From NCBI GenBank assembly GCA_015680905.1, contig CM027378.1, positions 38,661,001 through 38,725,000 on the forward strand: a stretch of DNA of 64,000 nucleotides, given 5' to 3'. Both the position numbers and the translations under genes were made by a program. This DNA is from Coptis chinensis. Taxonomy: Eukaryota > Streptophyta > Magnoliopsida > Ranunculales > Ranunculaceae. The notes below the pieces were generated by a model, which made no database searches, was not told the origin of the DNA, and worked only from the letters and a program-made list of their open reading frames with translations. Shown here piece by piece: positions 15,201 through 62,982 of this stretch (its first letter is position 1; every line of letters begins with the position of its first letter).

Positions 15201-18200
15201 AACAATCTCTGTTTTGTTGCTGACTAAATTGGAGTGGATTATTATATATATTTTTTGGTGTTAATCTTTGTTTTTGTTTACGCTAACAGTGTGAGATCAA
15301 CTAATATTATCGTTGTTGTCAAGAAATAAGAGAAGTAAAATTGGGCAAAGTTTTGGGGTGTTAATTTCTATTTGATTTTGACCAAGGGACGTTAACTACA
15401 ATTAGAAAAGCCTACGAACTTGGTGCAATTACCAAAATCTACCATAACTAGTTATTATACCAGTAAGGCAGTAACGCCATGAAAATTTCTTCAGTAAACA
15501 AACTACTTTTGAGAATTGCATCCATGAAGCCATGAGAAATAGTTGTTACAGTAATTTGAGTGTTTGACGTACTCCACGTTCACCCCAAGTAGCGTGAGAA
15601 AGAGAAGCAAAATGAGTAGTAAGGAAATAGAAGTGACTTTTTTAACTTCTTTGTTTATTGTGGCACCATGGCTAGTTGAGAGAATTTAGAGAAAAGAGAG
15701 AGAGAGAGAGAGAGAAAGTTTAACACGTGAGAAGCTTTTAATTGTGAAATCCATTTGCGGATGTCCGTCAAAGAGCCAACCTATATATATATAATTCTTC
15801 TCTAAAAAATAGCTATTTAAGTTAACTTAAAATAAATAGGTAAGTAAAACTTTACCTAGAAAAAATGAATTCAACCCTAATTTTTTTTATTTTTTTTTTT
15901 TGTGGTTATGAAGTACTCACCATAAAGATCATCTCCACAAAATTTCAACTCATTTAGAAACTTCTAACATTGGCAAAAGATAATTGCAAAAACTCAACAT
16001 ATATAATACAAAAAAAGAATGAATAAATATAATTAAATAAACAACTAAATGAAAGATTGTACATACTCTAGCCAAAGGACGATGTTCTACCTTTATAATT
16101 GCAATATTTACATTCATTGACAATATGCACCTTTTTAGGGGTGTTCACAAAAACCGACAAACCAAATCGAACCGGCCTGAACCGGTCATTTTTTTCAGTT
16201 TACTACATGTCCGGTTCGGTTTTCGATTCCTAATTGTAAAACCAACTTCATTTGGTTCGGCTCACAGTTTTTGCCCTCGGTTAACCGGGACCGAACCGAT
16301 AGCTGTACACTAGTAATAATTGTTATAAACCCTTAGATCGTTAAGTTAATTTATGACCATTGATTTTGAATGGACTATCTAACTTAAGCCACCAAACCCT
16401 AACTCTCTCACCCAGCCGCATGTGCCTCTCTTATATTCTCATTTCCAAAGTTCAAACTAACAACCTCTTCAACAAAATATCAGTGACCCTTTCCAAGATA
16501 ACAACCACTACCTCTCACCTTCTTCTTTTCTAGTTTAATTTTTAATTTTCTATCAAGGATCGTTGTTCACCGTGAGAAGAATGAACACTGATTATAGATC
16601 AATCGATTGAGAGATCTCACAAATATGTTTTCTGTAAATTAAAGCCAAATGATATCAATTTTCATGTTGGGTTTGATGTTCTTTCTGTTCATATCTCAAA
16701 TCTAATTGATTCAATAGATCAAAATTAGTTATCTTACTTGGTATAATTGGTTATCTCCCTTCTTAATGTTGCTGTTTTATAAATGCTTGCACCGATAAAC
16801 CGATTTAAGTTGGAATAGTTGAGCTTTAAGTCAATAGATTCGGTTTTAAACCAAACCGAACCGATTTTATAGTTCAGTTAGAACTCGGTTTTCTTCAGCT
16901 GTGGTTCGGTTACGGTTTGGAAAGTTAGAAACCGACTCTTGTGATTCGGTTCATATATTTGGACTAAACCGACCCAAACCGAACCGTGGACAGCCCTACA
17001 CCTTTTACAATGAACTTGTCAATAGTTCGGTTAGGACCAAGGAGAGCCATTCAAGTGAAAAATACAATTCTAAAATCCATCCAACTTTATCAATAGATGG
17101 GTTAAACCAGGGACTTTGGATAGACCTAAAGTTCAACCAAACCCGGTGATTTCAGCATTGATCCAGGAGTTTCTGTAAAATCTGCCAGAGTTGACTAAGG
17201 AGACTTGCAATCATTTTTAGCACTATGATGTAGTAAGGAACTTTATTTTTTTTTGAAGAAGCTAGGGGTTAGGTCCCATATCAAAGACACAAGACAGATT
17301 CCCATCTTGGGTCCCTGAAGAGTATAGGTCAGTATCAGATCAGTCTGAACGACAACCACCCAAACTTATCCACCTTAAACAAACTACTGTTGAGAACACG
17401 ACGAAAGTGGGAACGAATAAGACAAATACATGTGTTGCACTGGTTCGAGAGACATGAATACGATAACTCACTACAACCCACGGTGCCCTGATCAAGATTG
17501 AAGAGTACCAATAGCCCTAGAATAAAACAAATATTGATCTATAAATAGGAGTCCTAAGCTAAAAAGGGAAGTTCACAATCTTTGAACACTTTTGCAGCTG
17601 CTTCATTCCTGAATCCTAGAATAATTTGCTCACGGTAGAGCGCCAATGGAAATTGAAGAAGCCACATCAGTGTCTTTGTTTCCGTTAACGGATTCATTTA
17701 GAGCACACATACAGAATTACAGGTTGTTTAATTTCCGATAAGAAATATGTTCCGTGATTGTAACAGTAATCAACCATAATGCAAGAGCAACTCAAAATAT
17801 AAGCAAATATAGATATTTGACATAAGACAAGTTGATACAGCTTTGCACGTAATGGAAGTAACAAATAAAAGCAGTAGAAATTCTATAAAAGTGTTAGAAT
17901 TCAACGTACCATAAGATATCACAAGTAAATGTTGCAATAAACATGCGGGTAAGACTTTCAACAGGATGAAGAAGCTCTGGTAAGGAAACCACCATTTCCT
18001 CCTGATCATCTACTAATCTATTCTCCTCCTCACACTGAAGCCGGTTCAGAAAAAATTTCTTCCCTGATGAGGAACTAATAAGAACACAGTGTTGTTGCCG
18101 CAAAGTATCAACGGGAACGTTATTATCTCGAGAAAGCTCGTTTCGTATAAAAGAAATGGGATCTGCACTCTCTAAAATCATTCTACATCGATTCAATAGA

Positions 18201-18712
18201 AAAACCGCTCGACCAGTCGGATCACCATTTATGAGTCTTTTATTTTCAGTTAAATCAGTAAAAACTACTCTCTCAATTACAAAACCAATTTTCTCCACGT
18301 GATTATTACTACTATTACAAACAAAATTAACCTCATCACCAACAGACAACTCCACAAATTTACCCTCTCCAATTCTAAGACCGTTAGCAAATACACCATT
18401 CAAAGAAGACCTAATTTTAAACCCATCGAATATAAATATTTTACGGGCCGAACCATCAAGGAAAATTTGGCAATGACGGTTACTGACACGTGGGTCATTG
18501 AAGACGATATCGCAGTACTGAGTGTTACGGCCGATAGTGTAGAGACGGTTGGAGTTTAGACAAGTTGTGGTGGTGGGACCGGGGAAAATAAAAGGAGTGT
18601 CAAGTGATTTGAGGTGTAAGAATCCTGTTGATTGTTTAGTAATCTTTCTCTTCTCGATTTTGGTTACTGATAAGATATCATTACTTGGTTGTTGCTGCCG
18701 CTTATTAGACAT
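411..18712 (-). CDS. TDP1: FHA-domain tyrosyl-DNA phosphodiesterase (TDP1-related), 12 exons
   Basis: Predicted nuclear DNA-repair enzyme that removes tyrosine or other adducts from DNA 3' ends. Exons, 5' to 3' on the minus strand: 18712-17910, 13351-13217, 13134-12990, 9673-9374, 8878-8617, 7679-7513, 7219-7109, 3602-3551, 3460-3351, 3267-3139, 1904-1815, 926-411. Phases agree at every junction, giving 2820 nt and 939 residues. The FHA domain lies at about residues 57-125 (GR at 61-62, S77, H80, NG at 105-106). The phosphodiesterase part starts at about 250. The first HxK is H336-P-K338 followed by SANL; the second is H766-V-K768 followed by YCGSHN and PAAWG. A Glu-rich acidic tail closes the protein. 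It matches the plant lineage of Arabidopsis At5g07400 rather than the short TDP1. The start is the only ATG in frame before the FHA domain; TTG codons lie upstream. The frame is intact although TEs fill the introns. Exon joins are inferred from sequence alone. Confidence 0.9.
1295..1690. repeat. Degenerate repeat with GTGTCC/GGACAC motifs (intron 11)
   Basis: Sequence rich in cacggata, gtgtccgtgtgtctgacac and related motifs. The stretch 1301-1390 reappears in inverted orientation at about 6560-6655, and related motifs recur at 7300-7455 and 8177-8437. This is a dispersed small-element family within the introns of the same gene. No clear ends here. Confidence 0.45.
1905..3138. other. Intron 10 of the TDP1-related gene
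   Basis: AT-rich intron sequence between the exon ending at 3139 and the exon starting at 1904. Short open frames here have no recognisable domain. No element ends were identified. Confidence 0.6.
3838..4055 (-). pseudogene. Ty1/copia RNase H remnant
   Basis: On the minus strand the sequence reads KELTEIYCDNNSAIAIAKN, then after a frame break a TKHI-like stretch and a KYYYLR-like stretch. This is the order seen at the C-terminal RNase H end of copia Pol. Frameshifts and stops are present. It is a short fragment inside intron 7 (3603-7108) of the TDP1-related gene, in the same orientation as the gene. Confidence 0.75.
4056..4175. mobile_element. hAT-like end fragment (GGGCGGGTC-rich)
   Basis: The stretch ggatgtaaatggggcgggtc and the following cccgcccaccc motifs resemble the GGGTCGGG subterminal arrays of the hAT-like elements at 19422 and 45474. 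It sits directly beside the copia remnant. No second end was found. Confidence 0.4.
5161..5314 (+). pseudogene. Possible LTR-retrotransposon gag start fragment
   Basis: An open frame reads NTRRRGGNGNSHERDEPQND then QSAITHQAFMEVV, which resembles the hydrophilic N-terminal part of gypsy gag proteins. After the inserted repeat at 5315-5745 the same kind of sequence seems to resume (FFQDYYRMQEGHSPPRMLP), and is broken again by the element at 5809. Family assignment is weak. Confidence 0.35.
5315..5745. mobile_element. MITE-like element with GAGTA(C/G)C repeats
   Basis: The left end has ttaaatcgttgagtactc and the right end gagtagcgatttaa, an imperfect inverted pair, with gagtactcg and gagtagcg motifs repeated near both ends. 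It interrupts the putative gag fragment. No clean target duplication was identified. Confidence 0.45.
5809..6454. mobile_element. Small inverted-repeat element with GGATACG arrays
   Basis: Terminal inverted repeats of 13 bp (gaagcacggatac at 5812-5824 and its complement at 6442-6454) enclose tandem variants of tccgatacg and gtatccg. The flanks share ctaggatgttgccc (5795-5808) and ctagatgttgccc (6455-6467), so the target was duplicated over about 13-14 bp. It contains (GA)-rich and (TA)n tracts and no gene. Confidence 0.6.
7108..7512 (-). other. Intron 6 of the TDP1-related gene with a GC-AG splice pair
   Basis: Exon 6 ends in CACAG followed by GCATGT, and exon 7 begins after TTTGCAG at 7220. 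Using the GC donor keeps the frame open through exon 7 (GPCFTEISS onward). The nearest GT donor, GTATGT about 15 nt upstream, would shift the frame and stop within exon 7. GC-AG introns are a known minority class in plants. The intron itself runs from 7512 down to 7220. The small repeat at 7300-7453 lies inside it. Confidence 0.65.
7300..7453. repeat. Short relative of the 8177-8437 element
   Basis: Begins gttatatggacacc, ends gtcaatgtaac, and has cgtgtcggatacg and gtccatgtcggacac inside. It shares both ends and internal motifs with the element at 8177-8437 but is shorter. It lies inside intron 6 of the TDP1-related gene. Confidence 0.45.
8177..8437. mobile_element. MITE with TIR GGTTACATKGACACG
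   Basis: Left end ggttacatggacacg and right end cgtgtcaatgtaacc match as inverted repeats at 14 of 15 positions. The interior carries gtgtccgtgtccg and gtgtcggacac arrays. Both flanks have tagttttttt tracts, a possible target duplication separated from the left end by three A residues. It lies within intron 5 of the TDP1-related gene. Confidence 0.6.
9700..10560. other. Intron 3 segment without recognised gene
   Basis: AT-rich intron sequence. I see no element ends or coding similarity. Confidence 0.5.
10798..10810 (-). other. Copia-type primer-binding site (initiator Met tRNA)
   Basis: The minus strand reads ttggtatcagagc, the primer-binding site typical of Ty1/copia and TRIM elements. The sequence upstream on the minus strand (10811-10920) is therefore probably the end of an LTR. 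A degenerate copy (tggtattagagcgcc) lies at about 10570-10590. No gag or pol was found nearby, so this is a non-autonomous or decayed element. Confidence 0.5.
11308..11341. repeat. (TA)n microsatellite
   Basis: Uninterrupted TA dinucleotides immediately before the LINE fragment. Confidence 0.95.
11342..12233 (+). pseudogene. 5'-truncated LINE-like 3' end with poly(A)
   Basis: One frame reads through AVNATVPQKVLAEAF, KREFVLSARQKAVIGC, QRMSPVEYRSILRYRLMI and a zinc-binding-like stretch (CPVCKK, then HTAHC). It goes on to VNFLTDPNEGRSTLRPADV and ends FAIQKRLATQLVARLS. Three in-frame stops (about 11464, 11691 and 11820) show decay. An AATAAA signal at 12189 precedes an A-tract of about 28 nt at 12205-12233. 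This C-terminal module is common at the ends of plant reverse-transcriptase-derived proteins, often annotated as auxilin-like. It lies antisense inside intron 3 of the TDP1-related gene. Confidence 0.75.
12234..12989. other. Intron 3 segment, no gene seen
   Basis: AT-rich sequence between the LINE poly(A) and exon 3. Nothing recognisable. Confidence 0.5.
13500..13715 (+). mobile_element. Copia/TRIM LTR end with primer-binding site
   Basis: The site ttggtatcagagc at 13703-13715 matches the initiator Met tRNA. It follows a U5-like AT-rich stretch with a TATA-like tatatatatttaag motif at about 13613. Only the LTR end and the site are evident; no gag or pol follows. It lies inside intron 1 of the TDP1-related gene, in opposite orientation. 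Confidence 0.5.
14801..15775. mobile_element. Non-autonomous TIR element
   Basis: The left end carries aacggacatccgcaa (14806-14820) and the right end ttgcggatgtccgtc (about 15755-15769), an inverted pair of about 15 bp, each set beside (TA)n tracts. The interior of about 1 kb has CT-rich and (GA)n stretches and no transposase. Superfamily not determined. Confidence 0.55.
16136..16998. mobile_element. hAT-like element with CCGAACCG subterminal arrays
   Basis: Ends taggggtgttcac and gtggacagcccta form an imperfect inverted repeat (11 of 13). Both flanks carry the exact 8-bp sequence CACCTTTT (16128-16135 and 16999-17006), the target length typical of hAT. The end regions are packed with ggttcgg and ccgaacc repeats. 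The interior has no transposase, so it is non-autonomous. It lies inside intron 1 of the TDP1-related gene. Confidence 0.8.
17007..17909. other. Intron 1 segment next to the FHA exon
   Basis: AT-rich intron DNA with a stretch at about 17395-17470 that looks transposon-derived. No element ends were defined. Confidence 0.45.
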
Positions 18713-18856
18713 CAACTCAAATATAATCAAATAAATAATTGAGTTTGTAAATTGGTCAAGGCTTGAATAATCAAATTGAATTCATTTTCTTTCCGGCCTC
18801 AACTTATACCCCTGGGGTTCCGATTTTGTAAACAGAAGCTCGTTTGGCTGATATGT

Positions 18857-21682: not shown

Positions 21683-24600
21683 ACTCTGCCTGTGAAGAAG
21701 CTTGAGAGGATGTTGTACCCTTCCTGGACCTCTTTCTTGGAGGTGACATTGGTGGCATTGCGGGTATGTTGGTGGCCTCAATGGAGCAACACTTTCTTGA
21801 GTTTGAATAGGTTCGACCGCTAGGTTGTGGACCTTGTGAACTTCCAAATAAAAGTTCGGATAGATGGCCTTGATTAGAAACATTTCCCCCCCTCCCCCCT
21901 AGCACCTCCCTCCGCCTCTGCCTTTTCCACCCCCATCCTCACTTGCGGTCCCCTCTTGGCTCCCATCAGTAGCATTTCTCCCCCCCCTACTCTTGCTTCT
22001 ACCACCTCTACTTCCTCTCCCCCTTTGCGGCGGTTGACTCCCATCTTCACTTGCGATCACTTGGCTCTCATCCTCACCACCACTTATACCCCTACCCCCT
22101 ACCTCTAACACCTCTGCCTCTACCTCTTTGGCGGCAAATCACCTTCAACAACTTGACTCCCATATTCACTTGTAGGCAGTTGGCTCTCATCCTCACCACT
22201 TGTACCCTACCCCCTACCACCTCTGCCTCTACCCTCTTGGCGGCAAATCACCTTCAAAGAACTTGACTCCCATCTTGTGCATTGATTGGTGCGAGAAGAA
22301 AGGGGTTTGGGAGTGGCCTTGTTCTTGGTCTCCCCGGGCCTTCCTCTTCCTCTATGAGATTCTCGGCAAAGAACTGCAATGGCAAAGTGGCTTAACGTGA
22401 TTGACATTATCTCCCGCTTTGACCTCCTTGACAACCTCGGCATTATGCCCATAAACTTGGCACCTTAAACACCCTACGCCCGTTAGATTCATCTCGCACC
22501 TCTTCTTCTATTCACCCTTGGCCTACCAGTTGTCTTTGTCGATTGGTGGATAGATATACTCTTCTCTTGAGTACATTTGTTACAAACACACTACTATCGG
22601 ATAACATACTACAACTATAATACCAAACATGAAATGGAGTGCAACTATACTTACAATAGGCCATTCATCTTCATGCAAGTAAGGTACAATGTGACCAAAG
22701 ACAAGCTCTTTTGTAAGTTGCTTCTGGAGAAATAAGGGCTACAATACCTAAAACAACACAAATGGAGGTACAATGATTCACGGAAAGGCGAAATGATTCA
22801 CATAAATGACTCACGAGAAAGAAGAAGATAGAAATGACCCTTCACGAAAAGGCGGACAAAAAATGATTCACAAAAAGACATAAATGATTCACAATTATAG
22901 CAGAAATTATTCACAAAAAATGATTCATAGAAAGACAGGACATAAATGATTTTTAAAATGGGGGGTTTAGTCAAAACGCTATCCAACTTTGGGGGGTTTA
23001 GTCAAAACGCTACCAAACTTTGGGGGGTTAAGTCAAAATTCCCCTTAACGTAAAAGACAGAAAGAGGGCAGATGTGAAAAAGGATTCCGCGAAAAGGCGA
23101 AATGATTCACGGAAAGGCATTTAAATGATTCATAGAAAGAGAAATTCAATGATCTTACTCAATCCATTGTTGCCTCCTTGGTTTAATGAAATTTCTGACA
23201 TGAAGGCAAGGAATGCCAATGACTTGCCATTCATGACAATCACATGTGTGTCTCTTTAAGTCCACATTCCACCATTTTCCAGTAAAGACATTAGTCACTA
23301 AAAATGTGCCTTCAATTGCTGAACCACTCACATTCAAATTTCCAATTTTGCTACTAAGGTCAATAATAATATCCTTAACCCTTGGCACTAAATCATTATC
23401 ATTCCATAGCTCACATTTCTCTTTCCTGCCATATAATAACTTAATTTGCAAGATCATCACTTGTGAAATCATTTTGACAATGGGTTTGTCCCTAGCCATC
23501 AATATATGACTATTCCATGCTTCTGAAAAGTTGTTAGACAAATGATCAGACTTGCACACTTCATCAAAGTATGATCTTGCCCACAACCTTGGGTCTTCAC
23601 CCATCAGATAGTCTTTTGCTCCACTGTCAAGCTTTTCCAGCTCATCCATCAGTTTTGTAAACTCTGACTCTGAATATGTTTTGGCAAAGACTCCGGGCTT
23701 CAAGCTCAACTCCCTCGTACTTAGTTTTCATGTTCTTGACCATGTATGCAAAACAATACCTCCGGGTTACAATCGGGGAAAACAAATTTTGTCGCGAGAA
23801 GAACGATCCTTTATGCCTCGGAGATAATAGTCAACCGAGGGTGCCTATTTAAGTGTGGTGCCATCTTCTCTAGAAAATCAGTCCATGTCTCGTATTTTCA
23901 GCAATACACAAATAAAAGCAACAGGGAACAATCCATTGTTACCATCCAATGCAATAATAGATAGGCGGACACCTCCATGCTTCCCCTTCAAGAAACAACC
24001 ATCGAAGTCCTATCATGGGCCTTCTGAGCCTTGCACAAAACCATCTAGACTAGCCTTGAATGCAATACACACGGTCATAAAACTATGGAATTTTTCATGT
24101 CTAGAGTGCTTTGCAACACTTCCCTGGGTTAGCTTGCAAAAGGCGCCTACACAACGAGGTAATTTTGCATAAAGTATCATAACAACCATGGATCTTCTCC
24201 ATTGCCATGTTCTTTGCATGCCAAGCTTGCCAATACTTAATCCTAACCCGATACTTATCCATCATTTCCACCATAACATCATTAGGTGTGTATACCCTAT
24301 AATGAAGCCTCATTTCTTTTCTCAAGTCGGTTTGCTATCCACTGCATTTGCCATTGGATTCTTGTCTTCCCTATCGGACTCACATGTATGTGTGTTCACC
24401 AACTTCCTACACTTCATTGTATGTTTATTTGGTAACACCCTCACATAAATTATCCGGGGATGACCATCACCTTGCATTTCCATTCAATCTTATTACTATC
24501 ATTTCTTGTGTATTCAGCAACAAACTTATTACTAATAGCATAAAGTCTGACATAATCCCTACACTCATACCTATCCTTCTAGCACTGCCCAACCTCCAAC

Positions 24601-33283: not shown

Positions 33284-34123
33284 TCAGGTAGTCAAACCGC
33301 AGTTGATAACCTTACGGTAATAAAGCCAAGACGGATCTTTCTCTGTAATAGCACACTGCCCAAAAGGGTGTTGCTTAATGTACTTTTGAACATTTTCAGA
33401 TGTCGCTAAGCCTTCCAGATACAGCCTAATATCACCACCAGGTCCTAAGGAATTATCATTCTGATTCTGAAATTTATATGAAGGAGGGAAGATTGCGGTG
33501 CACGGAGGATTAAGCAAGGCTTTATAGGGAGAATCATCTATTAGCAATGTGTTTGATTCATTATACTCTCCATTTTCCCAGGGCAGATTAAGGTCGTGCT
33601 TATCCCATAGTTTTACCAGTTGTTTCAATACCAAAGGCTTCTGACTGTTCTCAATAGTGCAAAACCCTGTTTCAGTGCAATGGGATAGGTCCCAACAAAA
33701 TACCAATCCATGTTTCATATCGCCCATGATGAAATCAACAACACTGTCCACATTTGATTTAGTTCGGGATGACCAAACACCAACACTAAATCTTTGAAAG
33801 CAAAACTTCAAAAAATCATCACAGAATGGCCTCCTTAAAAGTGCTTTCCTTGAAATCCTCTTGTCAGCTTTGTATCCAGAAGGAAGATTGTTAACAATGT
33901 CAACAAGTAGACCATTAAGATCAAGAATAAGAAGTTTTCTTTTGATTTTACTGATTGGTGCTCTTTCTGGGGAAGCATATATCTCTATGAGCTTTTCCCC
34001 TATGACCCCATCCCCTATCACCATGACATCCTTTTCAAGATCTGTATTTAACGGAGTCATTTCATCTATCTGCTGTTTATTTGCGGATGTTCTGTTAGTT
34101 CCTTCACCCGTAGAACAATCTAA
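33284..34123 (-). CDS. FCP1-like HAD phosphatase domain, last exon
   Basis: The 279-residue frame holds a HAD-fold phosphatase domain of the FCP1/SCP type. KLLILDLNGLLVD carries motif I, RFSVGVWSSR motif II, and KPLVLKQLVKLW with NTLLIDDSPYK motifs III and IV. Motif I reads D-x-N rather than the usual D-x-D, so the nucleophile is kept but the proton donor is Asn. I recall this pattern from a plant subfamily usually annotated as an uncharacterised FCP1-homology protein. The sequence is in frame from an acceptor at 34124 (cataacag). An in-frame TAA lies just upstream, so the 5' part must be spliced in or start at the ATG at 34060. No other exon was found before the DUF724 gene. Substrate unknown; weak or altered activity is possible. 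Confidence 0.75.
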   Translation of the reverse strand, partial: LDCSTGEGTNRTSANKQQIDEMTPLNTDLEKDVMVIGDGVIGEKLIEIYASPERAPISKIKRKLLILDLNGLLVDIVNNLPSGYKADKRISRKALLRRPFCDDFLKFCFQRFSVGVWSSRTKSNVDSVVDFIMGDMKHGLVFCWDLSHCTETGFCTIENSQKPLVLKQLVKLWDKHDLNLPWENGEYNESNTLLIDDSPYKALLNPPCTAIFPPSYKFQNQNDNSLGPGGDIRLYLEGLATSENVQKYIKQHPFGQCAITEKDPSWLYYRKVINCGLTT

Positions 34124-35482
34124 CTGTTATGCAGAATGATCAAAATAGTTAGTTGATCATTCATGCTAGGTTGGTAAATCAATAGTTCAAGTGAACTACT
34201 TACGTATTAGATGTTATGGGCATTGTCCATATTATCAACATAAAACATAGAAAAAGTACTTCTGATAATTCTAGTAACATTAGAGAACCATTACATATAA
34301 CCTAAATTCAATATCTTGCTGTAAAACGGAATGTGATTTCATTAACTGGAAATAAAAAAAAATAGAAATAGATAATCATATCAATCTTATCCATATAGCC
34401 TGACCGAAGAGTATATTGCCTGTCATACTACAAAAGATCTAATAGCCACAAAGTGCCTGAAAAGAATAATCTAAACCAAATTACAAAAATACACTCTATA
34501 TTACAACTTACAAGACAAATCATATATTATGAATTCCCTTAAAGAAAATGAGTTAGCACCATAAAATCTTCATTCAAAACACACAGTAGTATGGGCTTAC
34601 TAACTAAATAATGTCGAACGGACAGACAAAAGAACATGGACATAGGGACAATGTCTGCGACTGAGATTTTAATAGATTATAACAGATTAATGTTCAATTG
34701 TGCATAGACTCTAAGGACACAATGGCTCATATTTCTCTCCATCCACCACTGTTCTGTGCTCTTTTCACAAAAAAAATTAAATAAAAAAAAAAAAACTCCA
34801 TCTCAAGTTCTGTACAGCTTTTGAGGGAGAGGCCATTTTCAGACAATGGTAATGACACAACCTTTTTAATTTCCAAAACGTAAAGCACAATTCTTTAGAT
34901 TGAGGTTGCAATAACAAAGAAAATTATCAATTGATTCGAGTTAGGATGCATCAAGGTACAACTTCTACCTTCAGTGATCAACATTCAGATAAAATTTCCT
35001 CTTATTAATTCAACAAAACTTAGACTCGGCCTATTGAACTTACACCAAAGTCATGGGACTTGCATCAAAAGGTGAGGTTGATCAAAAGGCTTGTCATACG
35101 TCTGAATGGGCTAGGCCTCCCCTAAATTAATAAAATAGATGTCAAGGGCACTTTCAACCTTCTCATATATGTCCTATATTTAGTTCGAGCATTATATTTT
35201 TTCGTAAAATGTAAAAACAACACAAACAATAGCCTCCAACAGATAACACAAGGAAATGGAACAGAGTCAAGATATAGAGTAGTAAGAAACTAACAAAAAC
35301 ATAAGAAAACAGGCTGAAAACAATCAGTTAAGACAGAAGGCTTGAAAATATTTAAACATTAATGGTGAATATAAAACAATTAAATGGATAGTAAATACCT
35401 TAATGCCATTGTAACGCTGTAGTTTTTTAGCTACATCAATCTCTAAACTACATAGCTTTAACAGAAAAATTACTAAGAAAGT
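34124..35482. other. Spacer or intron between DUF724 and HAD exons
   Basis: About 1.36 kb of AT-rich sequence with no clear exon, element or promoter. It may be an intergenic region or an intron of a joint transcript. Confidence 0.4.
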
Positions 35483-38400
35483 TCACCTGGGACGGGTACT
35501 CACTAAGGGGGAACCAACCATGTTGTCAAAATCAACTTTGAGAACCTGAATGGTTTCTTTTATTGCATCTAAGGTCCTTCGTTGTTCAGCGATATTAAAG
35601 GTTTTCATCTCCTTTTCCCTCATAAGTGTTTGAAGTTTGATATTCAATTGTTTGATAGATTCTTGTACTTGATCAACTTTCCGCTTCTCCTCAATGACTT
35701 TTGTTTCAGCTATTTTCGACTTCTCATCAAGCAGACTATAGCTATCTTTGATCCTCAGTAACTCTTCGAGACGAGCTCGTACACGTTGAACAGTGAAACC
35801 AACCCCCTCTAAGTCATTTAGCGCCTCCAACTTGTTTTGGAACATGATTCTGGGTTCATCAAGATTTGCATTCCATGTTCTTCCCACCAAATTGTTAAAG
35901 TTCACCACGTGTGCTATAGCAAACCCTTCACGAAGCTCCTCATTATATTGTTCAAGGGGTCGGAAATGTGGCTGTTGTGGCATGAACTTGAAAACTTCAA
36001 AAGACTCAAGAATTCCCCACAAAATTGAGCTCTTGATGAAAGGCAATCTTCGAACATCTGGGGGTAGAGACCCCTCATTGTGCTGAATTGGAGACAAAAA
36101 ATTGTTTGTTGTGATATTAACCATGTGAGAGGCTATTTCATCTTCACTTCTGTTGCCATATTGATACTGGTCGCTTTCAGCGAAAGATAAAATCTTGACA
36201 ATGTTTGTTTCATTTGGAAATTGCTCCATTGATGCATCTATCAAAGTGATTGCCTTATTTGAAATAACCTGACTATTACGTGAAACTCCTAGAAAAAGTA
36301 TTGATGATCAACCTCGTTAAATAAATAACAAAAACACATGTAATAAAACCAAACAAACAAAAAAGCAAACATTCCTAGTTACTCCAAAGTACCTTCGTTG
36401 TCTTTTACTATAGGAGAATTGGACATTTCAAGCAGAGAAAGAGGTCGATGCTTTATCGGGACAACTGTCATTCTGTCACTGGCAACTTCATGTTCAGATC
36501 CTATATGGTAACACAAAGGGTTTCTGTTATAAGCCAATAGAAAAGATGTTTGGGAAAATAATTGAAGTTTGTTAAAGTGGACAGGGGTTTAGACAATGAG
36601 CATATATGAGATACAGAATGCATGAAAATTGCACAATCTCAAGGCAGGAACACCCAAAGCTTTCAAAATTCAATCTGCTCCATACGATCATTACCAAGTG
36701 CCGACCTTCCCATTTATATGTTATGCCCACAGCCATAGCTTTGATTTCCCTATTCTTTAAATCATATGCTTTCTGGTGACATATTGTAATAAGGAGTTCT
36801 GGTTCTTGGTAAAGAAATCCTAATCAACAAAATACTCAAAAAATCAAAGAATAAAATCATATACCTTTCAAAGAAATTCTTTTATTTGACCCAAAGGTTG
36901 TACATTTTTCTTTTAAAGACACCAACTCATATTCTTGTCAATTATGATAAACAAAATCACTTTAACAAAATACTACAAAGTGATTCTCAGTTATCTCCAA
37001 TGTATTTTACTTTATGAGAATCAGATTTCCGAAGGAACATATTAAGAGGCTGATGTTTTTTTGCAATATGGCACAACAACGATGTACATTCTATCCGAAC
37101 ATCTGTTATTTTTTTGATGGAAGAATTTTTATCTTGACCTGGAAAGGGCCAAAAGGTTGTCCATCATTGACCAACATGATATGTGCTTCGATTAAGTCCA
37201 TTAGACCAAAAAGAAGTCTCCTGTTTTTGGAGAATATTCTTAGCTCAGAAAATAAATCACAACCATCTTGTACCTTCCACTGTTGATTTTTCACATGAAC
37301 CTTTCGGTCGTCCACGTATCCTATCAAGGACAGCCACAGTTTGCTTGTCTGTTGCTCCTGCATGAAGACACTTATGATCAACCCAATAAGTTTAACATGG
37401 CATTACAGAACGAGGTTAGATTAATACCTTCACTGTATTTTACCACCTGAGAATTGGGTTTGTCAAGTGTCGGAGAAAGACTACAATACTCTTCTTCAAT
37501 ATGAGTCGACAACATTGGTGTACAGTCTGTCCGATAGTCTTTAGTTTCTTTGCTGGCAAATCCATTTTCAAGAACTACAATGTGACAAAAGTTGTGTCAA
37601 TCATAGAAAAAATTAATACATGTTTGTACATGTTTGAGTCATGTTTAAGATAAACAGACCTCCTTAAATATGGTACTCCGAAATAACGGTAGACAGCATA
37701 AAGATTCACATTAATTCAATGATACGAGTGTTCAAAACTTCCCAAATTCCGCATGCCTTGAGCCCATGATTAACCATTACCCACCATGCAATTTGAATTT
37801 CAAACTGAAATCCAAAGCTTGTGGCCTACCTCTCTTGTGCCTTTGACCTAGATGTTGGTTCCGAAAAAAGAATTCCTAAGCCACAGATTATCTTAAACTG
37901 TTCTACACATTTCACTAATGTTTTTGCACCTGAACCTATTTGTCAACCTCTTTTCCTCTTCAAGACAACCCGCAACTAAACATAACAAACCAGTGTGGGA
38001 AACACAATAAAGTTGACCAAATACTTCCAACATTTATAAAGGTAGAATGCACAAAATTGCACTGTCCTCAGAAAGAGAGTGCAGAACTTCTAGTGGTCGG
38101 TGTGCTTTGATTAGTTATCGACTGAAAAAATTTACCAATTAAAATTTAATCCACAAATCAAGAGCATTTAGCCTTCCTTTCTCACATCTTGCACAAATAA
38201 TTACAAGGGAATGCTGAGACACAAATTATTCTACACATTCCACTAATGCTTTTGTTTTTTTTACCTGAACTTATTGACGATTCTCTTTTCCTTTTCACGA
38301 CTTTCTTTCTTTGATTTCTGACCCTTTTCACTCCTTTTAAATTAATCCCCTGTGCAATAAATGAAAGTTATGTTGATTACTTTAATTGATAAACCCAAAG

Positions 38401-41400
38401 AATGCATCAATACATGTATTTTGAGTAAAGTGCATGGGTCAGTAAAAACTTTGTAGCAAAACATAGACTTACTGTGTTGTACAATGGTTCTCTCATTTTT
38501 CCTGCTGGTAGAACATCATGCAGTTTTGTCTGCCGCTGTACATCAGGCTTAGTGAAGCCAATAACCTCAGGGTCTTCCGCTTCTATGACATTTGAACCAA
38601 GGTGAAAAGTTAATGGTGTTCTTTTAAGCATGATTAGGAGCTACAAAAACCCCTACCATTTTAAAATAAATGGAATTCAAATAAAAATAATAATATCGGT
38701 GTGCTTTGATTAGTTATCTACTGAAAAAAGTTACCAATTAAATTTAATGCACAAATCAAGTGCATTTAGCCTTCCTTTCTCACATCTTGCACAAATAATT
38801 ACAGGGGAATCCTGAGACACAAAATATTCTACACATTCCACTAATGCTTTTGTTTTTTTTACCTGAACTTATTGACGATTCTCTTTTCCTTTTCACGACT
38901 TTCTTTCTTTGATTTCTGACCCTTTTCACTCCTTTTAAATTAATCCCCTGTGCAATAAATGAAAGTTACGTTGATTACTTTAATTGATAAAGCCAAAGAA
39001 TGCATCAATAAGTGTATTTTGAGTAAAGTGCATGGGTCAGTAAAAACTTTGTAGCAAAATATAGACTTACCGTGTTGTACAATGGTTCTCTCAATTTTCC
39101 TGCTGGTAGAACATCATGCAGTTTTGTCTGCCGCTGTACATCAGGCTTAGTGAAGCCAATAACCTCAGGGTCTTCCGCTTCTATGACATTTGAATCAAGG
39201 TGAAAAGTTAATGGTGTTCTTTTAAGTATGATTAGGAGCTACCAAAACCCCTACCATTTTAAAATAAATGGAATTGAAATAAAAATAATAATTGATTGTC
39301 TTTACTGTACCACTCAAATTCAGTAAAATATAAACGTACCTCTCAAATTTGACCATAGAATGAGTTCAGAGGAAATGGGAACTCTAGCTCTTCTTTTTAA
39401 GACTTTACTCCTTTTCCCTTTTGTGGTTGGAAACGGAAGCATGTATTTTGCATCACTACCGCTCCCAGTCGATGTTCGTCTTGCTTGGAATACCTCTATG
39501 AATGTTTGAGCATCGGTTGCCTTTCTTTTCCCTATCTTCTTAGAAGTTCTCATGGCCCCAGCAGCGCTTCTAGGAGTTGACTTCTTCCTATTCTCCTGAC
39601 TTGGATATAGAACTTGCAAAGGCAGATATATTCCATTAGAAGTCGACTGATTATCCACACTTCCATACATGTTTCTGAGAGATGACCTCTCCAACATAAT
39701 GTCCCTGGCTCCACATGGAGTTTGTGAAAGTGTAATATCAATGCTAAGTGCCGAGCTTCCAGTTGGATTAGGGAATTGATCACGTCCATTATTTTGTGAT
39801 GAGACTGCCGTTTCCTGAAACATGTGCCCATGACCATAATTATTTATCAGACATCATTCAAACTTTTAAAGTATTCTTACAGTTTTGCAGCTCAAACATG
39901 GAACATTTCAATTCATCTATTCTTAAATTGGGACTACTTTCACATTAAAAATAAACCAACCTAAATGCTAACCAAGACAAGTATAGCCAAACTTTGACAA
40001 GAAATAGTATCATCAAACATCTAAATTCACAGAATTCTAGAAAACCCTACTTATTTCCCCACCACAGTCCAACGTAAAAAACAGATTTCATTGCAATCGG
40101 TTTAAGATAGCAGAGAAAACAGTAGATGCGGCCACCAATATAAGAGAGACAGGAACACAATCAATATGAGAAATCAAATGTTAAAGATATATTGGCCATG
40201 CAATTTACAAAGGAAAATAAACAAAATAAAATGACATTTATACTTTTTTTCGGCTGTAGAAGGCACTCTAGGATTAGGCCACCAATTCCAGTAAAAATCT
40301 TGATACAACGGGCATCCTTCTTGCGTAACGGATCCCTCCTTGGAATGGTTTTTTTTTTTGGAAATAGCCATGGGTTAAGGAGACCCCAACCTTTATTTAT
40401 CATTAAACTCTCAAGTACAATTTACCCTCTTTATCCTCCTTTGTCAAGACATGAAGTCCTTGACCCAAGGGAGAGATAAAATAAAAAACATCATTTCCAT
40501 AAATAATATAATACATAGCTTTGAGAGGTAGTTATCACAATCTACATAGCCTGGTTACCTTCTCTGAATACATGCTCAATGGTTACATCATCAAAATCTA
40601 ACATAATACTTTTAACATGTTCCACCAAGTTTTAACAGATTCAAGGACCGTTCCAGCAGGTTCAAGATTTTGACAACTCTCAGCTATGTTTGGTTCAGAG
40701 AATTAAGATCCCATGGAAAGTTGATCTTCTATTTGTTTTTTGAGGTATGGTGATCAAATTTTGAGATTGAAGTTTCCTTACTCAGTATGATATCTATGGA
40801 AAGCAACTTCAATTTTCCAAAAATGGCATTTGCATTCCTTATATCCACCTTCGCAAGTTGGACTCCCGCGTCTCTCTCGATTCAATTGTTCTCTCTTCCG
40901 ATCTCCCTCTCTCCCTGCAATCTCTCTATTCTTTTTTTCTCTCAACTTTCCAGGAATCTCAATTCCATGAACCATACACAACCTCAGTGAACCAGAGTGG
41001 ACTAGAATCCTCCTTTTGTTTAAGCTTCTGGTGGAGAACAGACAGCTTTTCTGAGCACCAGGGAAAGCTAACAAAACTTCACTATTCCTCAAAGAGCCAT
41101 CTGTGTTCAAGGACTTCAAGATGGGAACACCTTCTTCAGGAACTCTCAATTATACCGATTGTTGCACTGACTGCTTGAAACTCACCAATACACCAAGTTT
41201 CTGTAGTAGCTTTTCCACCTCCACACTACGTTGCACTGTTTCCAACGTTTTACCCAGGTACAACTTCATGTCATTCAATATCTTGTTTCCCACTTCTATT
41301 TCTGTCTTTTTCTTGCCTCTTGATCCTTCAATTTCTCTCATTCCAAATATAGTAGACAGGAGTGCATAAAATAGCTCTTATAATTTCTGAACACATGGTG

Positions 41401-43364
41401 TTTTCTCTACAACGCCTCATCAAGTAATATCATTCATCATGAGAGCCTAGAACCCTTCTAAGGCAGACCCAAGGCTACTTATATTGGATCACAGCAATTT
41501 TGGAATAACTATAGTCAAAGAAAAGGTGGACTGAGCTTTCTTCCTGGGAATTGCAGAAGTAACAGTTGGACTGGTTGATAACTTCCTTGCACATCAATCT
41601 ATTTTGTGTAGGGAGAGACCCTGAGAAGAGTTGACACACTGTAAATGAGTGCTTGGGGATAGACAGTTACCCCAAACAATCTTGTACCACTTTACCTTAC
41701 ACCTAATCTTCATGAGGGAGGCATAGGCCGATGAAAGAGAAAAGGCACCAGAACTGGTGGGGGTCCAAATGACTCAGTCCTCCACATTGTATGAATTGAT
41801 CTCAGTTTTCAGGATCATAGATTTTAAATCTCCATCAGGTAGCTCTGTGATAAGGGAAGACCAAGAGCCATTTACAATCACTGACCCAACATAAGCATCA
41901 TTAGGAATAGCAGGTGATAGTAATGCCCTAGCTTGGGCATTAAAAAGGAGAGGCCCAGAGCAACAGGGGTCATTCCAGAATCTTGTACTGAAGCAATCTG
42001 AAACGCAATGCCTGCCACAATACGTTCCATGTAGCATCTCTATGGTTTAAGATACCTCTCCAAACCCATGAACAATCTTTGGGCACTTTCATGGTCCAGA
42101 AATAACCATCTAAAATTTGGTGTTCCCAAGTCCACTTTACCCACAAACAATCACATCTCTGTGCAATTTTGAAAACTAACCACACACAATAGGCTGCTTT
42201 ATTCCAAGTTCTAGGATCCAGTAAACCTAATCACCAGTTTCCTTGGATGAGTTGTGGTAATTCAGTCAATCTTAAGCTTAGGTCTACATTTGATGATATA
42301 ATTGATGCTGATCCAGTTACTCTGGCAGTGAAATTAAGAAAAACGATGGTACCAGATGGCAATGCGTTTTTTTGCCTTATGACCAACAACTAAGAGCTTA
42401 GGAAAAGAGAATAGTTTGAAATCTACAGCAAACTTCATTTGATGTGCGAGAGCTTGGATGAAATGAGGAACTTTTATGGGTTAGTTATGCCCATCCATGC
42501 AAATATGATTATTCAAAAAGGGAGACTTTACTGCAAAATCCAAAGTTTCAGCTAAACTTGGACACTAGAAATACAATTTTGAGTTTCAAGCATTGTACGT
42601 TTTTGGATAACTCTATCCAAAAGTTACATAACACAGATCCAAAAATAAGCATCTGAGAATAAGGAAGTATATATAATTAAAGATAAAACTTTTCACCCAA
42701 ATAGTTTAGAAAAAAGTATAACAAAACAAATACTATTTTGAGCTGTGAATATTGTTTGATTCGTTACACTTTTTTAAGCAATAGACAAATGCAGCAAAAT
42801 ATTTTACATCAGAATAAACAAAACCTTTGTCCAAATAATCAAGAACAAACAAAGCCAAGTACGGATAAATCAAGTCAGAGAATACACATGTAAAAGCAAG
42901 CACAGAAAAGAAAAAGTGATCCTCAATACCTGGTTTGGAGAACTGATCCATTTTCCATCAACCCAATCTAGATGACTCCTCAAGTTCGAGAGATCAAACT
43001 CCAACTCCTCTTTAGTAGGTTTGAACAAGACTAAGTAGCTAGAACCCTCCTTAAGAATCTTCATAATCACTCCTTTCCACCACCCATCATTGTTGTAGGC
43101 ATTCACCTCTTCGTTTAGATGAAAGGGTCCAGTACCTTTTGGTGGAGCAGGTCTCAAATGTGCAAAATCAACGTATCCCCTCAAAAGCTTCTCTGACTCT
43201 GTTTCTTTCAGTAAGGTTTTGTACTCAACAAAATACTTCTTGTTTTTCTTCTTCTTTTTTAATACTTTTATGATAGTGGCAACAAACCATGAATCTTCAA
43301 ATCCTTGCTCATCACTTGATACTTCAACTTCTTGTCCTTTGACAAACTCATACTTCTTCTTCAT
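35483..43364 (-). CDS. Tandem Agenet / DUF724 protein, 10 exons
   Basis: Exons on the minus strand: 43364-42930, 39814-39340, 39180-39071, 38947-38863, 38582-38473, 38349-38265, 37574-37428, 37357-37274, 36500-36393, 36288-35483. Every junction has GT-AG ends and matching phase, giving 814 residues. Two Agenet domains fill residues 5-145 (VKGQEVEVSS; WWKGVIMKIL). Basic clusters follow (KKIGKRKATDA, KVLKRRARVP). A 65-residue unit occurs twice (304-368, 369-433). An AT-hook-like RGRPKG lies near residue 498. The DUF724 domain (LPFIKSSILWG onward) starts at about 628 and ends in a long coiled coil. Agenet domains belong to the Tudor-like fold, and plant DUF724 proteins are thought to be nuclear and to link RNA or chromatin with other factors. 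Exons 3-6 come from a tandem duplication. Confidence 0.85.
38098..39292. repeat. Tandem duplication of about 600 bp inside the DUF724 gene
   Basis: Copy 1 at 38098-38696 and copy 2 at 38697-39292 are nearly identical apart from scattered changes, with an offset of 598-599 bp. Each holds two exons (110 and 85 nt). The 110-nt exon differs at few sites, including one Leu/Met change; the 85-nt exons are identical. Because 110 + 85 = 195 is divisible by three and both ends are phase 1, both copies can be spliced in frame. Confidence 0.9.
39815..41399. other. Intron 1 of the DUF724 gene, distal part
   Basis: Intron sequence between exon 2 and the LINE remnant. Open frames at 40161-40479 and 40778-41149 have no domain that I can recognise. 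Transposon-derived sequence is possible. Confidence 0.45.
41400..42600 (-). pseudogene. LINE C-terminal (zf-RVT type) remnant
   Basis: Minus-strand pieces read WNKAAYCVWLVFK, RCDCLWVKWTWEHQILDG and FWTMKVPKDCSWVWRGIL, which mark the region after reverse transcriptase in plant LINEs. Then come SGAFSLSSAYASLM, KVKWYKIVWG and CYFCNSQEESSVHLFF, the zinc-binding zf-RVT part. Frame shifts join these pieces. It sits in intron 1 of the DUF724 gene, in the same orientation. No poly(A) end was found. Confidence 0.75.
42601..42929. other. Intron 1 of the DUF724 gene, proximal part
   Basis: AT-rich intron sequence after the donor of exon 1. Nothing else seen. Confidence 0.5.
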
Positions 43365-47334: not shown

Positions 47335-48545
47335 TCAATAAAAAATAATTATGACCAATAACATTACTATAATCTGGGAGGACCACGAGGGTGGTTGTTT
47401 ACCTTTAATTCTTTCTTTGAGCCAACTTTGTGTACAAATTAGCATTTGCACCGTTTCAGGATGCAAAGAACTTTTACGCTTAGTAACAACTCTGCCTTTG
47501 GGTTGGGATTCAGATGGAACAGTAGATACCAGAATCCCAAGAACATCACGAGCCATTGCTGACAAGATTGGATACTTTGCTTCATTTACTTTCCACCAAG
47601 ACAATATGTAAAATGGCAGAGACCGAGGCAAAATAGGCTCCTTTAAGTATAAGTCTATATCTCTCTTCGAGCCTTGGTTGGTCAAAGTTTCCTGAACAAA
47701 TTGTTCAAATCCACTACCCATGTTTATGCTATTAGATCCCACATCTATAATAATGTTTTGAGAAGGATCTAATGGTAATTGTGCTGCATACTCATTATAC
47801 AAACTCTCGAAAGCTTCTTCAACCTTCTTGACTTTACCAGCCGAACCAAATACATAAATCTTTGGAAAATAAATATGCCACTAGTATTATTTGAAATGTA
47901 GATCCAAGAAGGCAGTGACAACTAAACCAGAGTGACAAGTGCTCCAATATTTGTCAAACTTAATTTTCAAGATATTTGGCATCGTACGAATTGAATATCA
48001 TCCTTAGGACTATAGACCCACTCCGTTAGTGCAATGTCAATTTCACACGCACAAATGGAGGAAAAAAAATAGTTGATGTCGGATACAAAAAACTAACCTA
48101 AATAACAATATAAGTTTATTTATATCAATCAATACAAGTAAAAAAAAATGCAATAGTTAATTGTAAATAACTTAAACACATGCATACCTGAAAAAGCTTT
48201 AGTTGCATCATTAAATATCTTCAGACAAGCAGCCACATCACATGTCATAGCCTATTCTGCCTTTGAAGGAGCAAGCTTATAATCCCGATCACAATCGTGC
48301 AAGCGTGAAAATACATCCTTGTACATAAAAGCAACTTCAATCATGTCATAGGTCGAGTTCAATTCCATCTAGTTGGACAATCAAGAATTAAGCTTGTTTA
48401 ACAACCTCATCGAAAAGCTCTTGTTTTTTTATGGGATTTTGTAACAAATTTCACACTGTCTCTAACTTTCACAAGCATGTCACCAAGGGCATTCATCCTA
48501 TCTTGAACAATCAAATTGAGAATGTAGGTGAGTGATCTTTGCACT
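47335..48545 (-). pseudogene. hAT transposase (BED/RICESLEEPER type), decayed
   Basis: The C-terminal hAT dimerisation region is clear at 47700-47380: DIDLYLKEPILPRS, then FYILSWWKVNEAKYPILSAMARDVL and ILVSTVPSES, then SLHPETVQMLICTQSWL. Further upstream on the minus strand, 48540-48190 reads LTYILNLIVQDRMNALGDML, a CPTRWN-like motif, MYKDVFSRL and CLKIFNDATKAFS. Frame shifts and stops separate the parts. It lacks an intact N-terminus and BED finger. It could once have mobilised the small hAT-like elements in this window; nothing here proves that. Confidence 0.85.
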
Positions 48546-52636: not shown

Positions 52637-53567
52637 TTAGGCTTTTGATAGCCCATAGAGCACGATGCTCGAGTTCATTTGGAAGATGACAAGGTTTACC
52701 AAAAAGCGAGTGTAAGGGGACATGCCTATAGGTGTCTTAAAAGTCGCTGTTCTATATGCCCACAAGGCATCAGATAATCGAAGAGACCAGTCTTTTCTAG
52801 ATGGATTAACTGTCTTTTCTAAAATTGATTTAATCTCTCTATTAGAGACTTCTACTTGGCCCCGGTGCGAGGGATGATACGGAGTTGCCACTTTGTGAGT
52901 AACTCCATATTTCTTTACTAATGATTCAAAAATTTTATTACAGAAATGTTTTCCCCCATCACTAATTATAGCTTTGGGAACGCCAAATCGAGAGAAAATA
53001 TGTTCCTTTACGAAAAATACGACCGTTTTATGATCATTCACCACGACATGCCAACGCTTCAATCCATTTTGACACATAGTCAACAGCTACTAGTATGTAT
53101 AGGAAGCCATGACTATTTGGAAAAGGACCCATAAAGTCGATCTCCCATACATCAAAAATTTCTACAATTAAAATTGGATTTAAGGGCATCATATTGCGTT
53201 GAGTAATGCGTCCTAGCTGCTGACAGCGGTTGCATGCTTTGCAATGCTCGTGTGCATCTTTAAACAGCGTTGGCCAATAAAATCCACATTGTAGGACCTT
53301 GGCTGCAGTTTTCTTACCACTGAAATGACCACCACAAGATTGTTCATGGCAAAAGGATAACACGTCATTATGTTCCCAGTCAGGAATGCAACGGCGTATC
53401 AGTTGGTCGGAACAATACTTAAAGAGGTAGGGATCATCCCAAAAATAAAATTTCACAGTGGATAAGAACTTCTTTCGGTCCGTTCGAGTCCAAGATGAAG
53501 GGACCTCCTCGGTAACTAGGTAGTTTACTATATCAGCATACCAAGGAGATGAAAAAATGGAATACAA
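52637..53567 (-). pseudogene. Gypsy integrase (pieces)
   Basis: An HHCC zinc finger (HEQSCGGHF, then [10 protein letters not shown]) is followed by the catalytic core: [14 protein letters not shown] and [10 protein letters not shown], then after a frame break [15 protein letters not shown] and [26 protein letters not shown]. The three acidic positions of the DDE site can be followed. The C-terminal continuation at 52598-52362 reads SYKANMKRVHDKHILRKEF and GQKVLLYNSRLHIFPGKL. Confidence 0.8.
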
Positions 53568-53627
53568 ATGTTCATCTGGAAATGAATCGCAGATTGGTTC
53601 GGACTCATTATTGACATCATTAACGAG

Positions 53628-55501: not shown

Positions 55502-56209
55502 TTATGGCGCATTAGCGATTCTGCGAGGAATGGGCCCTAATATGATAGGAATGGAGTCACAGGCAACTTCTGTATCCAAAATGACAAAATCTACAGGATA
55601 AAAAAAATCTTGGACTTTTACAAGGACATTTTCCACAATGCCTTTCGGATGCTTAATGGATCGATCGGCTAATTGTAAAGTCATCGTGGTAGGTTTAAGC
55701 TCATGTAGACCTAGTTGTTTGAATAAGTAATAAGGAAGTAAGTTCACACTAGCTCCTAGGTCTAGTAATGCCGTAGCCGTATACTTATCACCTAATGTGC
55801 ATGGAACTGTTGGTCTACCGGGGTCATTGTATTTTACTATACCATTGTATTCAGTGATGGAAGGAAACTGTTCAGTAAGGAAAGCCTGTTGAGGCACATT
55901 TGTTCTTCTTTTTGTGGTGCACATGTCTTTCAAAATTTTTGCATGTTTTGGTAATTGCTTTAGGGCATCGAGAAAAGGTAAGTTTATTGTCAAATTTTTA
56001 AAGGTTTCCCTAATTTCATCAAAGTTTTCATCCGGTTTATTCTTTGCCAAACGGGCAGGAAATGGTGCCTTAGGGTGAATTTGGCATAAGGGTCCACTGT
56101 TCGTTTCCCAATTTTTAGATTGTGACGTTGAACTTGGTGTGTCCATTTGAGGTTCATTATAAAACAGATTCCTTGGAACCTCCGGTATCGTTTGTTTTAT
56201 CATCGGCAT
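55502..56209 (-). pseudogene. Gypsy aspartic protease region
   Basis: A 235-codon open frame ends in an aspartic protease domain: CTLGDKYTATALLDLGASVNLLP, with DLGAS as the active-site motif. ADRSIKHPKGIVENVLVKV and FVILDTE follow. The upstream half is gag-derived linker, rich in Pro and Lys. It is the longest uninterrupted piece of this element. Confidence 0.8.
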
Positions 56210-56261
56210 CTGGTTTGATTATCAACGGTTTTCGGATCGAAGAGTAGTGATTGTATTCACC

Positions 56262-62651: not shown

Positions 62652-62982
62652 CTCTCCCCCCGCTCTCTCCACGGCCGGTGGGCCAACTAGGGCATTGCCT
62701 TGCCCCTATGTTTGATCGGACCTCATGTCGCGAAGGGCTCTCCCCGCTCTGTGGACCGGCAAGCCGGATGGGGCATTGCCTTGCCCCTAAGTTTGATTCG
62801 GACCTCATGTCCGCGAAGGGCTCTCCCCCCGCTCTCTGTGACCGGCAAGCCGGATGGGGCATTGCCTTGCCCCTAAGTTTGATTCGGACCTCATGTCCGC
62901 GAAGGGCTCTCCCCCCCCGCTCTCTGTGACCGGCAGGCCGGCCGGGGCATTGCCTTGCCCCTAAGTTTGATTCGGTCATTTG
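62652..62982. repeat. Tandem repeat, about 86 bp, four copies
   Basis: Units at 62652-62737, 62738-62820, 62821-62906 and 62907-62982 share gaccggcaagccgga, ggggcattgccttgccccta and gatcggacctcatgtccgcg-like blocks. Copies 2 and 3 are nearly identical; copies 1 and 4 diverge. They lie between the end of pol and the opposite-strand ORF, where some Tat-type elements carry tandem repeats. Confidence 0.9.

Follow-up and report, generated by a model that had tools for sequence, protein, structure and literature searches.

In a 64,000-nucleotide stretch of the Coptis chinensis genome (GCA_015680905.1, contig CM027378.1, positions 38,661,001 to 38,725,000; termed the window, with positions counted from its first letter), a predicted Agenet/DUF724 gene was identified on the minus strand (43364 to 35484) in which a pair of linker exons, here named A and B, is present as two tandem copies. 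The explanation considered probable as a whole is that this pair was copied after the split of the gene from its paralogue L043, that both units are constitutively kept, and that the copying is the youngest step in a birth and death of linker exons. The event is a tandem exon duplication, a known kind of change, in a gene family where such events are unusually frequent.

The two units lie head to tail and are 96.8% identical across 598 columns when the gap is counted. Self-alignment placed the gene-proximal unit 1 at 38696..39292 and the gene-distal unit 2 at 38097..38695, the aligned copy of the latter covering 38097-38694 and position 38695 being an extra base at the junction. The repeat scored 799 bits at a period of 598 nt, far above chance, the best of 60 dinucleotide shuffles reaching 31.1. 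Unit 1 contains exon 3 (A; 39071..39180, 110 nt, phase 1 to 0) and exon 4 (B; 38863..38947, 85 nt, phase 0 to 1, with a basic cluster), and unit 2 contains exon 5 (A; 38473..38582, 110 nt) and exon 6 (B; 38265..38349, 85 nt, identical to exon 4), all on the minus strand. The eight splice borders of these exons were all found to be AG or GT, and each A-B pair runs from phase 1 to phase 1 over 195 nt, adding 65 codons. Adjacent homologous exons are thus present, with splice sites and phases in order in each copy, as in tandem exon duplication; the exons do not fit a mutually exclusive set, all four being jointly in frame in a protein of 835 amino acids.

Translation of all sixteen subsets of exons 3 to 6 gave five that remain in frame (none, 3+4, 3+6, 5+6 and all four), with products of 705, 770 and 835 residues for zero, one and two units in the final gene model. 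The other eleven were found to stop at 305 to 449 amino acids, before the DUF724 domain, which begins at residue 628; these lengths, and that of 450 amino acids given below for a decayed exon, refer to a first gene model of 10 exons and 814 amino acids. A sequence-only reading made earlier had described two tandem copies of about 600 bp, each with a 110-nt and an 85-nt exon bordered by GT-AG, entering and leaving in phase 1 and adding 65 codons; it had also claimed that one 110-nt exon alone would lose the frame, that messages with zero, one or two units would not, and that the gene is of the Agenet/DUF724 type. Each of these claims was borne out, every skip of a single exon truncating the protein. 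The frame-neutral outcome is unsurprising when taken alone, as it would be expected in about one third of cases by length, and copies that are retained would have been selected for frame.

Alignment of the two units, proposed as a check in that reading, revealed 18 substitutions over 597 aligned columns together with one internal 1-nt indel. Two differences fall among the 195 exonic positions and 16 among the 402 non-coding positions (4.0%). One of the exonic changes is an L to M in exon 5, derived in unit 2 when L043 is taken as outgroup; the other is silent and affects the last base of exon A, which is G in unit 1 and A, immediately before the donor, in unit 2. A single amino-acid-changing difference was thus seen where 6.0 were expected at the non-coding rate (p 0.016), and both copies are perhaps constrained. 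This pattern of divergence makes an assembly artefact or a very recent event less likely and lends modest support to selection acting on the two copies. Against L043, dN/dS was 0.60 and 0.63 for the two A copies and 0.36 for B (with dS at 1.25, near saturation), so that constraint on A and B appears moderate, on few sites. Values of 0.34 to 0.72 were obtained for the D exon of the window gene, described below, when compared with four D exons of L015 and with one of the two in L043.

Non-coding divergence between the units (K) was 0.041. Plant substitution rates range from 7e-9 to 1.5e-9 per site per year, from which an age of 2.9 to 13.6 million years is obtained, so that the duplication is probably millions of years old. 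The description of the copies as almost identical and recent needs qualifying: their identity is 97%, with a non-coding difference of 4.0%, and they are recent only relative to the paralogues. No shared bases were seen at the breakpoints and one extra A was found at the junction, which fits end joining and not recombination between repeats.

The final gene model, predicted from open frames, splice borders and paralogues, comprises 11 exons and 835 residues without an internal stop, a 63-nt exon having been added to the first model after comparison with L015 and L043. All exons lie on the minus strand. Exon 1 (42930..43364, 435 nt) carries the start codon and a tandem Agenet cassette (PF05641, E 2.7e-23, 82.7 bits, cut-off 27), and residues 4-141 of its 145 align with the solved AGD1-2 cassette of AGDP3 (E 8.2e-30 in a comparison with the PDB). 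Exon 2 (39340..39814, 475 nt) was recognized from its splice sites and open frame; it ends in phase 1, and homologous stretches occur in L013, L015, L043, L044, L045 and L046. Downstream of the duplicated pair are exon 7 (D; 37785..37847, 63 nt, core KRGRP, with AG/GT borders), identified through homology to the D exons of L015 and L043, exon 8 (C; 37428..37574, 147 nt), exon 9 (B4; 37274..37357, 84 nt, core RGRPKG) and exon 10 (a second C-type exon; 36393..36500, 108 nt), each of which runs from phase 1 to phase 1. Exon 11 (35484..36288) encodes the DUF724 domain (PF05266, E 4.2e-41, 141.3 bits, cut-off 38.4, profile positions 2-185 of 188) and ends with a TGA (35484) unless a possible donor immediately before it, CCCAG|GTGAAC, is used. 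An N-terminal Agenet and a C-terminal DUF724 domain, the arrangement of Agenet/DUF724 class II, are therefore both present, joined by a linker of short exons, some with an RGRP core and many flanked by phase-1 introns.

Within intron 1, a remnant of a LINE-like retrotransposon was observed on the strand of the gene at 41478-41666 (zf-RVT, PF13966, E 3.4e-10), with a neighbouring piece at 41597-41773 that scored under the cut-off (E 0.018).

Paralogues were sought in this one genome (936 Mb, 116 contigs). A DNA search identified relatives of exon A on C9 and C7 and a relative of B on C4, and genome searches gave 27 match rows for DUF724 and 10 for the 65-residue unit. Seven loci around the first matches were read, then three genes and then two more; the genes read account for 10 of the 27 DUF724 rows (one each in the window, L013, L014 and L043-L047, and two in L015), a match at C3:17236832 being among the other 17. 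Scans of viral contigs and other genome contigs found no relatives outside this genome. Two A-B pairs are present in the window gene and in L044 (C3), one in L043 (C1) and in L013 (C9), and none in L015 (C4). L045 (C4) has two A exons, each following one of three copies of exon 2, and no B was detected there. L046 has no A-B pair; L047 matches the window gene over little beyond DUF724, making its zero less informative.

A maximum likelihood tree of the A-to-B stretch was built from eight rows, with L009, L012, L014 and L045 left out as partial or broken. The two window copies were recovered as sisters (100/99) with L043 next to them (99/97), and the two L044 copies as sisters of each other (100/100). 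Identity over this stretch was 97.6% within the window, 76.5% within L044, 71% from the window to L043, 99.7-100% among L013, L010 and L011, and 53-63% for the remaining pairs. The second window unit would hence be younger than the split from L043, and the same A-B pair appears to have been duplicated independently in L044. As L043 and L013, the nearest intact-looking paralogues with this pair, have it once and the window copies are sisters, a one-unit ancestor is the simplest reading and probably the true one. In L044, an AG is missing from both acceptor positions of exon A in unit 2 and is present at the upstream one in unit 1; not all B exon borders were found in this gene, and its stretch yielded no exon 1.

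A segment of the L013 gene with exon 2, A and B recurs in L009, L010, L011, L012 and L014 (G000:C9 and C7). The copies in L009 and L012 span 545-546 bp (98.5-99.1%), those in L010 and L011 about 1570 bp (96.6-97.3%), and the one in the broken L014 reaches 5.3 kb (96.8%). The flanks of L009 and L012 are shared as well (96.8-99.0%), so the gene fragment seems to be carried inside a larger dispersed repeat. No convincing match to exon 1 or DUF724 was identified in L009-L012.

The sequence-only reading had missed both the suggestion of an ancestral single unit and the repeated duplication of linker exons in this gene as in its relatives. L045 was found to contain, at 4804-6003 (sense), five tandem C-type exons at a spacing of about 240 bp and 83.8-87.3% identity, a longer array than that of the window gene. 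L015 contains a ladder of about four exon-pair units at 60.7-63.9% identity, each a fused C/B-type exon with a D exon, for example GERHERGRPKALDLGMTCEVKG, and two units of the same type are present in L043. Matches between the linkers of the window gene and L015 reach 60 to 79%, as high as those of L015 with itself, so part of the L015 ladder may predate the split between these two genes. A table of modules comprised 54 rows in six genes; once the 14 rows for A and B, which are asymmetric, were set aside, 24 of the 40 rows for D, CB, C4, B4 and C6 showed AG and GT placed exactly at their first and last codons, respectively (phase 1 to 1). Among the remaining 16 are decayed copies, partial matches and modules with an unreached end, and all five C rows of L045 fail at the donor.

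Traces of older copies were also detected in the window gene. Self-comparison of the region 35400-39340 gave matches above the best of 60 dinucleotide shuffles (31.1 bits) between 37625-37369 and 37188-36939 (81 bits), between 37820-37553 and 36741-36479 (39.7 bits) and between 37970-37869 and 37335-37231 (38.3 bits), at a decayed B match at 37966-37895 (52.5 bits), and at two further places (36.8 and 32.6 bits). The 52.5-bit match identifies a decayed third B copy (B3; 37930..37975, minus strand), 73% identical to B1 and B2 over 79 nt, which retains its AG and GT borders and has an in-frame TGA in the homologous frame; inclusion of these 46 nt would cut the protein short at 450 amino acids, and the copy could act as a poison exon. 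A decayed C copy (36993..37139, minus strand; 61.9% identity to the exon 8 region over 257 nt, the 81-bit match) has kept its AG acceptor and has AT in place of the donor GT. Tentative decayed D exons were placed in unit 1 (38728..38793, RCEKGRLNALDL) and unit 2 (38130..38195), again on the minus strand, from a weak tblastn match (E 0.035) and without exact splice borders.

DNA shuffles indicated that B1 is related to B3 and B3 to B4, none of 300 shuffles reaching the score in either case. A direct relation of B2 to B4 was not supported (88 of 300 shuffles reached the score), leaving the two linked only via the decayed B3, and no homology was found between exon A and the C-type exons (protein shuffles p 0.73 to 0.96; DNA shuffles 224/300 and 180/300). 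Two further candidates were rejected: the 3' end of exon 2 as a B relative, which is unproven (protein p 0.006 before correction, in a set of 34 comparisons and between very basic peptides; 55 of 300 DNA shuffles), and a decayed partner of exon 9 at 36939-36835, whose 26.8 bits are within shuffle noise.

Both B exons contain the basic cluster KKVVKRKRESS, described earlier as a nuclear-localisation-like cluster that the duplication doubles. The doubling is present, the 85-nt exons being identical; its effect is probably small, given that further clusters (at least five K or R in eight residues) already occur in exons 1 and 2, at residues 32-45, 236-244 and 279-289. With those clusters present, the duplicated one would more likely influence affinity or spacing than nuclear import. 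Two RGRP cores were identified in the linker, HKRGRPQA at residue 440 and RIRGRPKG at 519, and RGRP or HGRP was also found in linker exons of L015, L043 and L013. An AT-hook motif consists of a GRP core flanked by basic residues, which describes both cores of the window gene, and DNA binding by them may be supposed. No match to Pfam AT_hook was obtained with short peptides up to E 10 or with the 814-residue model up to E 0.1, under HMMER filters that drop most weak short matches. In the available sections of the respective papers, AGDP1 is described as recognizing H3K9me2 via its tandem Agenet pairs (PMC6208443) and AIP1 as nuclear (PMC4634149). The product of the window gene is likely to be a nuclear chromatin reader of the Agenet/DUF724 class.

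Several observations weigh against the explanation favoured here. The ancestral state leans on two single-unit genes in one genome, in which L044 has two units. The comparison of exonic and non-coding differences is not significant alone (Fisher p 0.07), and chance or conversion could partly explain it, while silent sites (one change seen, 1.75 expected) provide no test of constraint. Among several D copies dN/dS was near or above 1, reaching 2.7 on few sites, so part of the linker may drift freely. An A replacing G as the final exon base would weaken a donor, and exon A of unit 2, which ends in A, could be skipped more often. Regarding the older copies, repeats of at least 32 bits spaced more than 200 bases apart also occur in 4 of the 21 other tiles (2697 bases each) of the window, in one of them up to 196 bits; the argument therefore leans on register too, the aligned C copies sharing the place of their AG acceptor. 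Inclusion of either copy is, furthermore, a prediction from genomic sequence, as are the variants of the splicing switch considered next.

That the duplication serves as a regulated switch between proteins of zero, one and two units was judged unlikely. All three lengths are in frame, a one-unit message can be made in three ways (including the first A with the second B), tandem exon duplication is a recognized source of alternative splicing in the accessible part of PMC2674458, and the altered last base of exon 5 would be in keeping with regulated skipping. However, a coordinated skip of two exons would be needed, as the eleven truncating subsets illustrate, and the same source ties the frequent intron retention of plants to intron definition, with exon skipping and cryptic exons amounting to 10.0 to 20.2% of events across the four columns given there. 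It is somewhat less likely still that the second unit serves no function, being harmless or for the most part spliced out, and is decaying as the older B and C copies have done. Loss is evidently common in this gene, judging from those copies and the tentative decayed D exons, and the linker evolves fast, exon A being 59% and exon B 39% identical to their L043 counterparts; yet all eight splice borders and the open frame are kept in both copies, and amino-acid-changing differences are fewer than expected. A false tandem copy, arising from two haplotypes or a mis-joined read, is highly improbable. The tandem copy is known from one assembly, but its 18 differences are spread over the unit and are mostly non-coding, its period is 598 bp with an extra junction base, only these two places reached at least 97% among the matches listed in the genome search, and L044 has a diverged double copy of its own.

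Under the favoured explanation of tandem copying with constitutive inclusion, a 598-bp piece with linker exons A and B would have been duplicated in direct tandem after the split from the nearest paralogue, probably through end joining that needed no breakpoint homology. Since both copies have intact splice sites and coding sense, the likeliest product holds both units (835 residues in place of 770), and we infer that both are constitutively spliced in. The linker may touch DNA or nucleosomes via its basic and RGRP stretches, and its length and charge may tune contact between the Agenet and DUF724 ends. The A-B duplication would then be the youngest visible step in a repeated gain and loss of linker exons in the gene and its paralogues. 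A broader proposal is advanced tentatively: the linker may be a fast-evolving exon array of phase-1 modules, several of them AT-hook-like, which are repeatedly copied in tandem in each paralogue to give a gene-specific number of basic units contacting DNA or nucleosomes and a gene-specific distance from the histone-reading to the partner-binding end, the 598-bp pair being the newest step and possibly varying in copy number among individuals by unequal crossing over. One gene family in one genome offers duplications of several ages, with independent versions between the same two domains. This little-studied family provides a natural series for the effect of linker length and charge on a chromatin reader, and it allows one to ask whether phase-1 exon borders make a region evolvable.

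Elsewhere in the window, neighbouring coding pieces were identified for an FHA domain (17894-18781), a NIF-type phosphatase (33284-34126), a SWIM zinc finger (23155-23727) and a piece of tyrosyl-DNA phosphodiesterase (9320-9682). A hAT transposase dimerisation region lies at 47335-47880 (PF05699, E 1.4e-25), and LTR retrotransposon pieces (integrase H2C2 and core, aspartyl protease), at a guess of Ty3 type, lie at 53034-53627, 55502-56218 and 63381-63998. An 86-bp tandem repeat of 3.4 copies (62690-62975) is situated in a region with 52-54% GC that begins near 60 kb and continues to the window end. Scans of the window with Rfam (at the gathering threshold) and for tRNAs found nothing.

Among the titles and abstract starts listed in searches of open-licence literature, no description of linker exon duplication in the DUF724/Agenet family was found, which is weak evidence of absence. 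A paper on the wheat family describes, in the part available, 3-7 introns in group I (PMC10531524), and the word "duplication" does not occur in its main text. The class II protein AIP1/DUF7 of Arabidopsis (At3g62300, PMC4634149), as presented in the accessible sections, resembles the window gene in its N-terminal Agenet pair, C-terminal DUF724 domain and long linker. It differs in having 722 residues and no clear DNA-binding signature reported in those sections, where the product predicted for the window gene has 835 residues and contains two RGRP cores as well as the duplicated linker unit; the words "exon" and "AT-hook" are absent from that paper. AGDP1 and AGDP3 (PDB 7yta, 7yt9; PMC6208443) are comparable through the alignment of exon 1 with AGD1-2 of AGDP3; however, 7yt9 contains AGD1-4 and AGDP1 is described in the available text as having three pairs, whereas the window gene shows one pair together with DUF724. 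AT-hook proteins are similar to the window gene in its RGRP cores with nearby basic residues, and differ in that Pfam reports no AT_hook match here.

Tandem exon duplication was reportedly put forward by Kondrashov and Koonin in 2001 (cited in PMC2674458) as a source of alternative splicing. The terms "plant" and "Arabidopsis" were not found in a survey of such events (PMC9013439). With tandem exon duplication in general the window gene has in common that homologous exons lie next to each other in one gene, with their splice sites intact and their phases compatible. The case described here differs in that two asymmetric exons (1 to 0 and 0 to 1) are duplicated together as one unit, that its copies can be joined in frame and need not be mutually exclusive, and that the paralogues repeat other exons of the same linker.

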